Source: Puniceicoccaceae bacterium (GTDB taxonomy: Bacteria; Verrucomicrobiota; Verrucomicrobiia; Opitutales; Coraliomargaritaceae). Taken from it: a stretch of DNA of 58,784 bases. Under the pieces are notes generated by a model, which saw only the letters and a list, made by a program, of their open reading frames with translations, made no database searches and was not told the DNA's origin. The position numbers and the translations under genes were made by a program. Positions 11,013 to 15,365 of the stretch are shown piece after piece. How positions within the stretch are numbered: the stretch's first letter is position 1; the number at the start of each line of letters is the position of its first letter. The stretch is taken from positions 1-58,784 of the forward strand of contig JAFMHF010000005.1 in the NCBI GenBank assembly GCA_017854655.1, given 5' to 3'.

Positions 11013-11460
11013 GGCTTTCAGCGCACTATCGGTTACACAGTCGTCATCGAGAGCTGCTTGATATTTAAAAATAAGGGACGAACTGGAATATCTGGCGATG
11101 TGAAGTTTTAAAGTGGTGCTGAGGTCGTCTGTGGCTGTGCATCGCCTTGGAATGTACTTGGAAGATTGAGGGTCGGCGTGCGCATGCCGAAGGTCGGCGT
11201 GATACTGAGATCAATCAGCGGAATCAGGCAGTGATTTAAGGTCTGCGATGGCAAGTCTGTGGTTGATCTTCAAATTGGCATCATTCCTGCATGGCATCAC
11301 ATTATGTATGCTGCGCTTATTATTCTCCGAACACACTATAGCGAATTTACTGAATGGCTTTGTGAGCTCTCTAAGTTTTGTTGGCATTTGATGGTAAAGC
11401 CGCGTGAGTTGGGCGCGATTGCAGTTCGTTCAGAAGCGTCTTAATTTAATTTTTGTAGCG
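11013..11460. other. Gene-free spacer between hisI and the HAD phosphatase
   Basis: About 450 bp without a convincing gene. GGTCGGCGTG occurs twice (11171-11180 and 11192-11201). A 61-codon frame at 11259-11444 has no recognisable features. I saw no clear terminator, riboswitch or tRNA. A small RNA or the promoter region of the downstream glycosylglycerate operon is possible but not shown. Confidence 0.5.
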
Positions 11461-12306
11461 ATGTCTGCGAAAAAGAAACTGCTGGTCGTGACGGACCTCG
11501 ACAGTTCACTGTTAGATGATTCCTATTCTTGGGAGGAAGCGCGACCTGCGCTACACCGTCTGAAGACCTTAGGCATTCCGTTGGTACTCAATTCGAGTAA
11601 GACCCTGTCTGAAATGAAGGATTTGGCGCATCGTTTGGGCACGTTTGCACCTATGGTTGCGGAGAACGGCGGCTTGCTAGCTGTGCCGCAAGAGTCGGGC
11701 TTGCTGGACCAGCCTCAGACTTTTCATCGCTCAGGGAATGATTGGATCGAGGTCACGGGGCTCTCTCGCGACTTTATTCTGAGCCGCGCCCATGCGCTGC
11801 GTGAGGCTGAGGGTTACCTATTCGATGGCTTTGCGGATTGGTCGACTGCGATGGTCGCCGAGCATACTGGCTTGAGTTCTGCCGCGGCGAGTCGCGCTCA
11901 GTCGCGCCATGCGACTGAGCCGATTTTGTGGAAAGATACTTTAGCCCAGCGTGAGACGTTTGAACGCTCATTAGCGAAAGACGGCATCCGACTTTTGAGG
12001 GGGGGGCGCTTTCTACATTTGATGGGACCTGCTGATAAAGCTAGTGGCACTGTTGCAGTGAAGGCCCTGTATCAGCAGGCGCTGCCCGGTGTGGAATGGG
12101 TGGTGGTGGCGCTGGGCGATAGCCAAAACGATCAAGCGATGCTTGAGGTGGCAGATATTGCGGTAGTAATTCCACATGCGGATGGGCCGCATATTTCGCC
12201 GCAAGCGCCGCGTGTACTCACTGCTTCGATGCCTGCGACTGCCGGTTGGAACGAATCGATTCTAACGATCATTAGAGATGAGCTCGGAGCTTCGGCTTTG
12301 CAGTGA
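11461..12306 (+). CDS. HAD-family mannosyl/glucosyl-3-phosphoglycerate phosphatase
   Basis: A 281-residue HAD hydrolase of the Cof/MPGP type. Motif I is TDLDSSLLDD (nucleophile D12, acid D14; Ser-Ser replaces the usual Gly-Thr). LNSSKT is motif II, followed by AENGG and motif IV GDSQNDQAML, typical of subclass IIB. Such enzymes remove phosphate from mannosyl- or glucosyl-3-phosphoglycerate to release the compatible solute. The next gene, 71 bp downstream in the same direction, starts with a GpgS-like glycosyltransferase, so glucosyl-3-phosphoglycerate is the likely substrate. I start at the ATG giving MSAKKKLLVV; an upstream in-frame start would add 19 residues without any domain. Confidence 0.85.
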   Translation: MSAKKKLLVVTDLDSSLLDDSYSWEEARPALHRLKTLGIPLVLNSSKTLSEMKDLAHRLGTFAPMVAENGGLLAVPQESGLLDQPQTFHRSGNDWIEVTGLSRDFILSRAHALREAEGYLFDGFADWSTAMVAEHTGLSSAAASRAQSRHATEPILWKDTLAQRETFERSLAKDGIRLLRGGRFLHLMGPADKASGTVAVKALYQQALPGVEWVVVALGDSQNDQAMLEVADIAVVIPHADGPHISPQAPRVLTASMPATAGWNESILTIIRDELGASALQ

Positions 12307-12377: not shown

Positions 12378-15365
12378 ATGGGCGACTTTCATCAACACGG
12401 ATTAATTACAACACTGCACCAACTGAATGATCGGCCACTCGAAAAGCTGGAGGCTGATTTGATGCAGTTTCGCAAGCGTCGTCCGATGGCCTTAGTGCTG
12501 CCGTCGCTATATTCCGAGCTGCAGGGGCCTGCGCTTTCTGCCATTTTAGATGAGATTGCGGAGGTGCCGTATTTGGATCAAATCGTGGTTGGACTGGATC
12601 GTGCGAATGAGGCAGAATATCGGCACGCGTTGCAGTTTTTTAGTCGATTGCCGCAGATGCCTGAGGTCCTTTGGAATGATGGCCCGCGCTTGCGTAAGAT
12701 TGATGCGTTGCTGAGTGATAAGGGGCTGGCTCCGAAGGAAATGGGCAAGGGACGCAACGTCTGGTATATGTTTGGTTACGTGCTAGCTGCTGGAAAGGCG
12801 AAGGCGGTGGCACTGCATGACTGTGATATTACGACCTACAAGCGCGATATGCTCGCTCGTCTGATTTACCCAGTGGCGAACCCAGCGTTTAGTTATAAGT
12901 TTTGTAAGGGGTTCTACGCTCGTGTTGCAAATGATTCGATGAATGGGCGTGTTTGTCGACTGTTGGTCACTCCACTGATTCGTGCGTTAAAGAAGGTTTG
13001 TGGTGCGAATGACTACCTCGATTATTTAGACAGTTTTCGCTACCCGCTTGCGGGTGAATTTTCGCTGCAGACCGATGTGATTGAGGATATTCGTATTCCA
13101 TCTGATTGGGGTCTGGAGATGGGGGTACTCTCGGAGATGCACCGCAACTATGCGACGAATCAAATTTGCCAGGTTGATGTGGCGGATACCTATGATCACA
13201 AGCATCAGGATCTATCATTGGAGGATCGATCGCGCGGGCTGTCAAAAATGAGTTGTGATATTACTAAGTCGCTCTATCGGAAGATGGCGACGCAGGGACA
13301 GGTTTTTTCGCATGAGCATGTTCGCACGATTAAGGCAGCCTATTACCGAATCGCGCTGGATTTGGTGGATAGCTATTACAGCGATGCGGCAATCAATGGT
13401 TTAAAGTATGATCGTCACATCGAAGGGTCTACGGTTGAGGTATTTGCTGAAAATATTTTGCAAGCAGGTGAAGATTTTCTCGATCCGAAGAAGTCAATGG
13501 ATGTGCCGTTTATGCCGAGTTGGAATCGAGTGATTGCGGCAGTTCCGGACATATTGCATCAAATCAAAGAGGCGGTTGAAGATGATCGCCATGAGTTTGG
13601 TTCGGAGGTCGTGACGAATCCATCGCTGAATCCCAAGGCGCAGCGGGTGCGTCAGCGCATGGCGCAGCACGTGACCGAGGTCTATGGCGCGGAGCGAGCC
13701 GAGGCGATTACTGAGCAGATTTTTGAAGCAGGTGGAATGTCTGAGCAATCTTCCTCCACTGCATTTGGCACCAGTAAATGGGACGAGTCAGACGTGATGT
13801 TAATCACTTATGGTAATTCGATCGTGAGTGAGGTACGTGCGCCGCTACGTGAGTTGAAGAATTTCCTGATGCGTGACCTCAAAGCCACGTTTAGTAGTGT
13901 GCATGTGCTGCCGTTTAATCCTTACAGCTCGGATGACGGCTTTTCGGTGATTGACTACAAAGCGGTCAATCCCGAACTCGGCACTTGGGAGGATCTCGCG
14001 TCGATTAGTGAAGAGTTTGATCTCATGGCAGATATGGTGATTAATCACTGCTCGCGAGAGTCTCGTTGGTTTCAGAACTTTTTGTCCGGTCGCGGCAAGG
14101 GCCGTGATTACTTTATAAATGGTCTGGATTATGAGGATCTATCCAAGGTGGTTCGTCCGCGCAGTTCGCCGTTGTTGACCAAAGTGGAAACTGTCGATGG
14201 CGAGAAGCATGTCTGGTGCACCTTTAGTGAGGACCAGGTGGACCTTGATTTTCGTAATCCGGAAGTTTTTTTAGAGATTGTCCGAATTATCCGTTATTAC
14301 GTGGAGCAGGGGATTCGTTACTTTCGTTTGGATGCGATTGCCTTCCTTTGGAAGGAGTCTGGGTCGACTTGTGTGCACCTGCCTCAGACGCATGAGTTGA
14401 TTAAGCTGATACGGGTCGTGATTGAAAATATCGAGCCATCTGCTGTGATTGTTACTGAGACGAACGTGCCGAATCGTGAAAATTTGAGCTATTTTGGTAA
14501 CGATAATGAGGCGCATTTGATCTATAATTTCTCGCTGCCGCCGCTATTGCTTAATTCGATCTTGAGTGGCAATTGTAAGCATTTGAAAACATGGATGATG
14601 TCGATGCCGCCCGCTCGTCGTGGTCGGGCTTATTTGAACTTTATTGCTTCGCATGATGGAATCGGTCTGCGTCCGGCCGAGGGATTGCTCTCTGCTGGTG
14701 AACTTGATGGGCTGATCGAAACGCTTCGCGATTCAGGCGGTGAGATCTCTATGCGTCGCACGGCAACTGGGGACTTGACGCCGTATGAGGCAAATATTTC
14801 GCTCTACAGTGCGATGGCGCAAAGGATTGGCGGCGGCGAGGATGGCTTGCAAGTAGAGCGTTTCCTTTGTGCACATAAGATTATGTTAGCCCTCGAAGGG
14901 ATGCCCGCGATTTACGTCCACAGTCTTCTGGGTACTGAAAATAATCGCGAAGGGATGGCGCAGACCGGGAGAGCGCGGACGATCAATCGCTACCAATGGC
15001 AGGCGGATGATCTTGAAGCTGCTTTGGCTGATCCGGAACGGCATCATCAAGCTGTCTTTGCGGAGATGAAGCGCTTGATTCAGGTTCGTCGTCAGCAGCC
15101 GGCATTTCATCCCAACGCGACCCAATACACCCTACACTTCTCAGATCAGGTCTTCGCTTTTTGGCGTGAGAGTTTAGATCGTGAGCAAAGTGTTTTTGCG
15201 CTGCATAATGTCTCCGCCGAGCTTCAATTGATACCAATGGTGGAGTTGAATCTGATCGCAACCGAGTCGTGGAGCGACCTTATTAGTGGTCAGCTTTACG
15301 AGGACCTCGGCGGAGAGCTTGAGCTGCCACCATATGGTTGCGTCTGGATTACGAATAAGGCGTAA
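12378..15365 (+). CDS. Fusion: GpgS-like glycosyltransferase + GH13_18 glucosylglycerate/sucrose phosphorylase-type domain
   Basis: A 995-residue two-enzyme protein. Residues 1 to about 410 resemble glucosyl-3-phosphoglycerate synthase (GT81): a nucleotide-sugar D148-C-D150 motif, KGFYAR, PLAGEF and a late QVDVADTYDHKHQ with the metal-binding His. Residues from about 470 form a complete GH13 subfamily 18 (sucrose/glucosylglycerate phosphorylase) domain. It has HVLPFNPYSSDDGFSVIDY, nucleophile D652 in FRLDAIAF, acid/base E694 in VTETNVPN, and transition-state D760 in ASHDGIG. Nothing suggests a frameshift; the linker is continuous and charged. With the upstream HAD phosphatase, one chain could both build glucosylglycerate and phosphorolyse it to glucose-1-phosphate and glycerate. 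Sucrose or mannosyl substrates cannot be excluded. Confidence 0.85.
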   Translation: MGDFHQHGLITTLHQLNDRPLEKLEADLMQFRKRRPMALVLPSLYSELQGPALSAILDEIAEVPYLDQIVVGLDRANEAEYRHALQFFSRLPQMPEVLWNDGPRLRKIDALLSDKGLAPKEMGKGRNVWYMFGYVLAAGKAKAVALHDCDITTYKRDMLARLIYPVANPAFSYKFCKGFYARVANDSMNGRVCRLLVTPLIRALKKVCGANDYLDYLDSFRYPLAGEFSLQTDVIEDIRIPSDWGLEMGVLSEMHRNYATNQICQVDVADTYDHKHQDLSLEDRSRGLSKMSCDITKSLYRKMATQGQVFSHEHVRTIKAAYYRIALDLVDSYYSDAAINGLKYDRHIEGSTVEVFAENILQAGEDFLDPKKSMDVPFMPSWNRVIAAVPDILHQIKEAVEDDRHEFGSEVVTNPSLNPKAQRVRQRMAQHVTEVYGAERAEAITEQIFEAGGMSEQSSSTAFGTSKWDESDVMLITYGNSIVSEVRAPLRELKNFLMRDLKATFSSVHVLPFNPYSSDDGFSVIDYKAVNPELGTWEDLASISEEFDLMADMVINHCSRESRWFQNFLSGRGKGRDYFINGLDYEDLSKVVRPRSSPLLTKVETVDGEKHVWCTFSEDQVDLDFRNPEVFLEIVRIIRYYVEQGIRYFRLDAIAFLWKESGSTCVHLPQTHELIKLIRVVIENIEPSAVIVTETNVPNRENLSYFGNDNEAHLIYNFSLPPLLLNSILSGNCKHLKTWMMSMPPARRGRAYLNFIASHDGIGLRPAEGLLSAGELDGLIETLRDSGGEISMRRTATGDLTPYEANISLYSAMAQRIGGGEDGLQVERFLCAHKIMLALEGMPAIYVHSLLGTENNREGMAQTGRARTINRYQWQADDLEAALADPERHHQAVFAEMKRLIQVRRQQPAFHPNATQYTLHFSDQVFAFWRESLDREQSVFALHNVSAELQLIPMVELNLIATESWSDLISGQLYEDLGGELELPPYGCVWITNKA

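Follow-up and report, generated by a model that had tools for sequence, protein, structure and literature searches.

A single gene in the window (the whole 58,784-nt stretch of DNA analysed) encoded a GpgS-like glycosyltransferase joined to a GGaP-like phosphorylase of family GH13_18. We interpreted the product to be, quite probably, an enzyme with two functions in the metabolism of glucosylglycerate (GGA), made most simply once, by head-to-tail fusion of neighbouring operon genes. From the sequence, both predicted activities are likely to reside in the one chain. GGA is a salt-protective sugar compound (osmolyte).

Table 1. Features of the fused locus and related fusions (window coordinates unless a locus is named). 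The residue counts include non-independent rows, because several genomes are present twice through two collections.
Feature	Position	Strand	Remarks
GpgP-like HAD-IIB phosphatase	11461..12306	+	TIGR01486 above cut-off; upstream of fused gene
Fused GpgS-GGaP gene	12378..15365	+	995 aa; single ORF, conserved in relatives
GpgS-like half	12378..13598	+	residues 1-407; predicted GT81 fold
DCD (D148-C149-D150), putative DxD nucleotide/metal site	12819..12827	+	41/41 fused, 82/82 separate rows
Linker	13599..13652	+	about residues 408-425, from separate GpgS end to separate GGaP start
GGaP-like GH13_18 half	13653..15362	+	residues 426-995
D652, predicted nucleophile	14331..14333	+	40/40 fused, 91/91 separate GGaP-type rows
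TETN motif (693-696), GGaP-diagnostic, with predicted acid/base E694	14454..14465	+	40/40 fused rows
D760, predicted transition-state stabiliser	14655..14657	+	40/40 fused, 91/91 separate rows
E804, loop-A Glu, GGaP-diagnostic	14787..14789	+	40/40 fused, 90/91 separate rows (one X)
Kinase-GpgP fusions	L105:4230-6008; L166:2880-4622; L116; L183-L187		kinase at GpgP N-terminus; ORFs 571-594 aa

The fused gene started with ATG and ran for 995 codons in one frame with no internal stop. Profiles for both parts matched this ORF, in line with the in-frame fusion that the first-pass annotation had claimed, and the DCD motif lay where it had been placed there. In an alignment of the junction from ten fused and ten separate loci, the separate GpgS proteins ended near residue 407 and the separate GGaP proteins began near residue 426. 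This indicated that both proteins were kept whole and that a short linker, of 10-20 residues, was added between them. In the full-length AlphaFold model (pTM 0.62), the linker residues 410-419 had pLDDT below 50, and the mutual placement of the halves was of low confidence. No extra or regulatory domain was seen at the junction in this model or in the junction alignment.

An internal start was considered by eye: the Met of the RQRM sequence at the window's junction was absent from most of the 20 rows. A promoter scan gave 3 sites against 4.5 expected. Comparison with the fused gene of L047 (96% identity) gave dN/dS values of 0.06 for the glycosyltransferase (GT) half and 0.08 for the GH half. 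In the pairs measured, both halves show purifying selection.

The HAD phosphoglycerate-phosphatase claimed to lie directly upstream was confirmed, scoring 192 bits against TIGR01486 (the mannosyl-3-phosphoglycerate phosphatase family; cut-off 165). Its ORF opens at 11404; translation probably begins at the ATG at 11461, giving 281 aa, which equals the ORF length in the near relatives L047, L086 and L132. It ends 71 bases 5' of the fused gene.

Gene order was surveyed in 135 loci (the window and 134 fetched), several of which were one genome from two collections. GpgS and GGaP were fused in 41 of them, and the phosphatase was next upstream in 40 of these 41 (the exception being L058). In 67 of the 135, GpgS and GGaP were encoded by separate genes that followed the phosphatase gene, GpgS first, all on one strand; one of these loci (L141) had its phosphatase 1,155 bases away. 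The spacing between separate GpgS and GGaP, taken from the 67 loci and four more with both genes, was mostly a few tens of bases and ranged from -86 to +216, the negative values depending on the start codon chosen.

Adjacent but separate gpgP, gpgS and ggaP genes were found in Gammaproteobacteria, SAR11 and others. Such clusters were seen in two Pelagibacteraceae loci (L134, L135), three titled Alphaproteobacteria (L123, L124, L126) and one titled Neomarinimicrobiota (L122). Excerpts of PMC12636525 note glucosylglycerate synthesis genes in offshore SAR11 genera.

A plasmid search with the GT half returned 12 records, and the GpgS and GGaP genes were separate in the three inspected. A fourth plasmid region, found by its GH match, had no annotated GpgS. 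The plasmid records with pathway genes were from Leisingera (L195), Qingshengfaniella (L167) and Pseudoalteromonas (L166, 843 kb). The Leisingera plasmid was predicted to be conjugative, and in both alphaproteobacterial plasmids (L195, L167) ggaP was oriented opposite to gpgS.

The predicted pathway would run as follows. The N-terminal half would transfer glucose from NDP-glucose to 3-phosphoglycerate, and the adjacent GpgP would remove the phosphate to yield GGA. The C-terminal half would phosphorolyse GGA to glucose-1-phosphate and D-glycerate, and a glycerate kinase would return D-glycerate to central metabolism. The phosphorolytic direction in the cell is the one that we infer for the GGaP half, and a role of GGA as a carbon store is plausible.

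Channelling of glucose-1-phosphate between the two activities had been proposed in the first-pass annotation and was not supported. GpgS and GGaP have no direct intermediate in common, as a separate phosphatase acts between them, and direct channelling between the two active sites is unlikely for the same reason.

The same annotation had reasoned that a protein with opposing activities must have a switch. In the form of a regulatory device, the one chain would shift between making and phosphorolysing GGA in response to salt, phosphate or metabolites. The opposing active sites do lie on one chain, in several families of the phylum, and the purifying selection described above is in keeping with such a device. 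On the other hand, the junction adds only the short, low-confidence linker, and many bacteria encode these enzymes in genes that are separate but next to one another. Clustered synthesis and breakdown is thus the common state, and since the opposing genes also occur clustered without being fused, the fusion by itself does not point to a switch. We considered this explanation unlikely. Rather than channelling directly or creating a new switch, the fusion would mainly fix production at 1:1 and bring the two activities together in one place.

A P-loop kinase was present upstream of the phosphatase in many loci. The copy in L062 had D-glycerate 3-kinases as its best solved matches (6ckg, E 1.2e-23; 7xpc, E 7e-17). 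Within 5.5 kb in the 135 loci, the kinase was a separate gene beside the phosphatase at 36 separate-gene loci, 13 fused loci and one contig-cut locus (L142). In L122 it was located downstream.

In eight of the 135 loci the kinase was itself fused to the phosphatase (Table 1). Three of them (L105, L116, L166) had separate GpgS and GGaP. In the other five (L183-L187; five genomes, two families) this fusion was next to fused GpgS-GGaP, so that two proteins carry all four predicted steps. A D-glycerate 3-kinase would convert the D-glycerate released by GGaP to 3-phosphoglycerate, the acceptor of GpgS, and so close a four-enzyme cycle.

In the window's genome (91% complete), neither a GLYK-type kinase nor a MOFRL kinase was found. 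A glycerate kinase of PF02595 was present (E 1.4e-98; TIGR00045 above cut-off), as were four NTP-transferase matches.

We offer only tentatively, as a reading with a modest chance of being right, that the fusion, the phosphatase and, in many relatives, the D-glycerate 3-kinase form a compact GGA cycle with a built-in osmolyte set-point. If this were true, the two fusion proteins of some Verrucomicrobiota would each pair one making with one recycling enzyme, and with the opposing steps at fixed ratios the cell could keep its solute pool steady or reset it fast.

The NCBIfam model GpgS_Meth (NF040724) matched residues 3-407 of the GT half over profile positions 2-402 of 402 (E 2.6e-108). The score, 362 bits, was below the equivalog cut-off of 700 bits, which was passed in none of the 384 genomes of the window's class. 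For this reason the half was named GpgS-like and was not filed under that equivalog.

Searched against the PDB as a single sequence, the GT half gave weak matches to seven GpgS/MpgS-type chains (E 0.0004 to 0.23) and to one unrelated chain (E 0.77). With a 40-row profile the best E was 2.1e-5, and seven chains were matched up to 0.01.

An AlphaFold2 model of the GT half alone had a pLDDT of 89.8. Foldseek against the PDB ranked mycobacterial GpgS, Rubrobacter xylanophilus MpgS or 'mycobacterial protein' entries at 1-41, and other mannosyl(phospho)glycerate synthases after these, up to rank 50. The best E was 2.3e-11, with a TM-score by query length of about 0.5 and about 300 of 409 residues aligned. 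R. xylanophilus MpgS is described as a GT81 enzyme in the portions of PMC2581804 consulted, and the predicted model accordingly took the GT81 fold in this comparison.

The nucleotide and metal residues were also retained. D148, D150, H274, E247, R182, K124 and K177 were identical in all 123 rows (41 fused, 82 separate). Excerpts of PMC2581804 describe the role of the second DxD Asp in M. tuberculosis GpgS and a metal/nucleotide role for His258, with which H274 would correspond through the alignment to 3ckj. The residue alignment therefore placed both the DxD and the loop His of a GpgS in the GT half. The first-pass annotation had held that its reading would fall if the GT half turned out to lack nucleotide-sugar activity; the nucleotide and metal residues and the predicted GT81 fold appear to be kept.

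In the GH half, the Pfam alpha-amylase model matched residues 508-727. D652, E694 and D760 were present where they had been claimed, and they aligned with the RLDA, the Glu and the HDG of solved GH13_18 enzymes (sucrose and glucosylglycerol phosphorylases). Excerpts of PMC7178133 give two marks of GGaP, the motif (T/S)ETN and, in loop A, a Glu. E. coli YcjM, a characterised GGaP, carried both, as did the window's protein (Table 1). Among the separate GGaP-type rows, E694 and N696 were present in 91/91, and T693 and T695 in 90/91. In the four sucrose-phosphorylase controls, on the other hand, the TETN motif was absent and Gln was at the position of E804 (4/4 each).

The sucrose-phosphorylase model TIGR03852 matched residues 472-944 (E 7.2e-57) with 193 bits, below its cut-off of 334. 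YcjM likewise failed (221 bits), whereas the four controls scored 440-656 bits, all above the cut-off. A tree of the GH halves was rooted on two TIGR03852-positive controls; YcjM was its only characterised GGaP, and the sucrose-phosphorylase rows were uncharacterised. The 79 GGaP-type rows, including YcjM, were split from the two controls with a branch support of 100. The GH half thus grouped with YcjM and away from the controls in this tree. Grouping with enzymes of unrelated substrates, the other outcome that the first-pass annotation had named as counting against its reading, was not seen.

Sucrose phosphorylase was rejected as the identity of the GH half from the failed TIGR03852 cut-off and from the marks, which point to GGaP. 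Sucrose-6-phosphate phosphorylase was also rejected, judged by the TETN and loop-A marks only.

These results bear on the alternative that the halves have no common solute, with NDP-mannose or some other sugar used by the GT half, or another glucoside by the GH half. The best solved match of the GT half, by sequence and by fold, was a mannosyl-3-phosphoglycerate synthase, an enzyme type that GT81 also includes, and the shortfall against NF040724 points the same way. Set against this are the GGaP marks in the GH half and the fact that it is found again and again together with GpgS-type and GpgP-type genes. We regarded this alternative as improbable, with glucose rather than mannose as the presumed donor.

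It was also considered that the phosphorylase half might run mainly in reverse and form GGA out of glucose-1-phosphate and glycerate, in which case both halves would be synthetic. Phosphate in the cell normally far exceeds glucose-1-phosphate, and the commonly linked glycerate kinase suits breakdown. Although the reaction is reversible (PMC11009771, in part), the two points above leave this a decidedly poor prospect, and phosphorolysis is the preferred direction.

The search for other fusions, which the first-pass annotation had suggested, was productive. In a near-relative search of 57 genomes (the window's own and its relatives), the full-length fused ORF was found in 26 genomes, its own included, all of them among the 37 of the window's family. 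The 25 other full-length homologues in the family were 57-99% identical to the window's fused protein. In one more genome of the family (G035), the fused gene was split across two contigs. Another (G016:C9:570-1163) retained only residues 797-994 (198 residues, 84% identity); this genome is 99% complete, and the fragment is either a broken gene or an assembly fault.

Over the window's class, 15 of 384 genomes, from two families, had the GpgS match as part of an ORF 991-1063 codons long. Full-length fused matches in 14 of 387 Verrucomicrobiota genomes added two families (f97 and f107). A set of 60 genomes, made up of a MAG titled Mariniblastus and those around it, had the fused gene in three; Mariniblastus is a planctomycete genus. 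The names of relatives' isolates suggest a marine habitat for the window's organism.

Different arrangements were also observed. Loci L074-L083 of the window's order, among them L081 (G002:C171), carried a different GGaP-type gene of 41-47% identity. G002 is a same-genus genome, 74% complete, with no match to the fused gene, yet with this different GGaP-type gene. Several genomes of the L074-L083 set had only distant GpgS-like matches (24-31% identity). In family f107, which also holds the fused-gene carriers G613 and G625, two loci (L191 in G642 and L192 in G698) had a separate GpgS of 62-64% identity and a divergent GGaP of 41-42% identity on the opposite strand.

An assembly or frameshift artefact joining two genes, which the 141 contigs of the window's genome assembly might suggest, is refuted by the full-length ORF that 26 of the family's 37 genomes carry, one of which (G010, with a 78%-identical protein) is in 2 contigs, and by the same ORF in another family's genomes of 2-3 contigs, so that its chance is practically nil.

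The history of the fusion was examined with trees of each half. From the large sets 13 near-duplicate fused rows were dropped, leaving 28 of 41 fused rows for GT and 27 of 40 for GH; the separate rows were hand-chosen (48 of 82 for GT, and 54 of 95 non-fused rows for GH). The GH tree, in which 27 of the 81 rows were fused, needed one change, with support of 97 for 26 fused rows and 32 for all 27. The GT tree (28 fused of 76 rows) needed three. In a 38-row set, GH gave one fused clade with support of 98; GT gave two changes, and one fused clade was not rejected (p-AU 0.50). The GT tree was blurred by L065 (separate), L069 (separate, on a long branch) and L193 (fused), the last of which was not firmly placed.

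Repeated independent fusion was not favoured: it was unneeded on the GH tree, and a single clade was not rejected on the GT tree. A single fusion of operon neighbours, followed by spread, would be the simplest reading of these trees, weakly supported by the GT tree.

The fusion had been put forward as not previously described, and no published description was found in the literature searched. Among the titles and abstract openings of the literature searched full-text, none presented a GpgS-GGaP or a GLYK-GpgP fusion. The enzyme parts and their clustering are known; the two architectures are apparently undescribed in that literature. Excerpts of PMC7178133 state that the metabolic function of GGaP is not experimentally confirmed, and that GGaP is the only known possible GGA sink in many producers. 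That GGaP is tied to GpgS across several families of bacteria gives good evidence, at the level of genomes, for a role of GGaP in handling the cell's own solute. The fused chain is also a simple protein for testing why bacteria cluster making and breaking enzymes. As a fusion of genes it appears tidy, if modest.

The same three enzyme types are found as separate gpgS, gpgP and ggaP genes in Synechococcus PCC 7002 (A2021, A2023 and A2022), with homologues in Marinobacter (PMC10873239, in part). The neighbourhood of these genes is stated in part of PMC7178133, and the consecutive locus tags suggest that they are adjacent in PCC 7002. There GpgS and GGaP are separate proteins, whereas in the window they are one chain.

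E. coli YcjM and the window's GH half are both GH13_18 and share the TETN motif, the loop-A Glu and the catalytic triad, at 41% identity. YcjM stands alone, whereas the GGaP of the window is fused to GpgS; no GpgS or GpgP name was among the 20 annotated features of the E. coli ycjM stretch.

Other fusions in solute metabolism are similar in part. GgpPS of Marinobacter and others is a fusion enzyme for an osmolyte, and a GH13_18 phosphorylase gene lies next to its own (PMC10873239, in part). It joins glucosylglycerol-phosphate synthase to a phosphatase, for the solute glucosylglycerol, whereas the window's protein joins a synthase to a phosphorylase. The MpgS-MpgP model NF011072 (mannosyl-3-phosphoglycerate) is likewise a fusion in a related solute pathway. 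It joins two consecutive synthetic steps; the fusion in the window, on the other hand, joins opposing ones.
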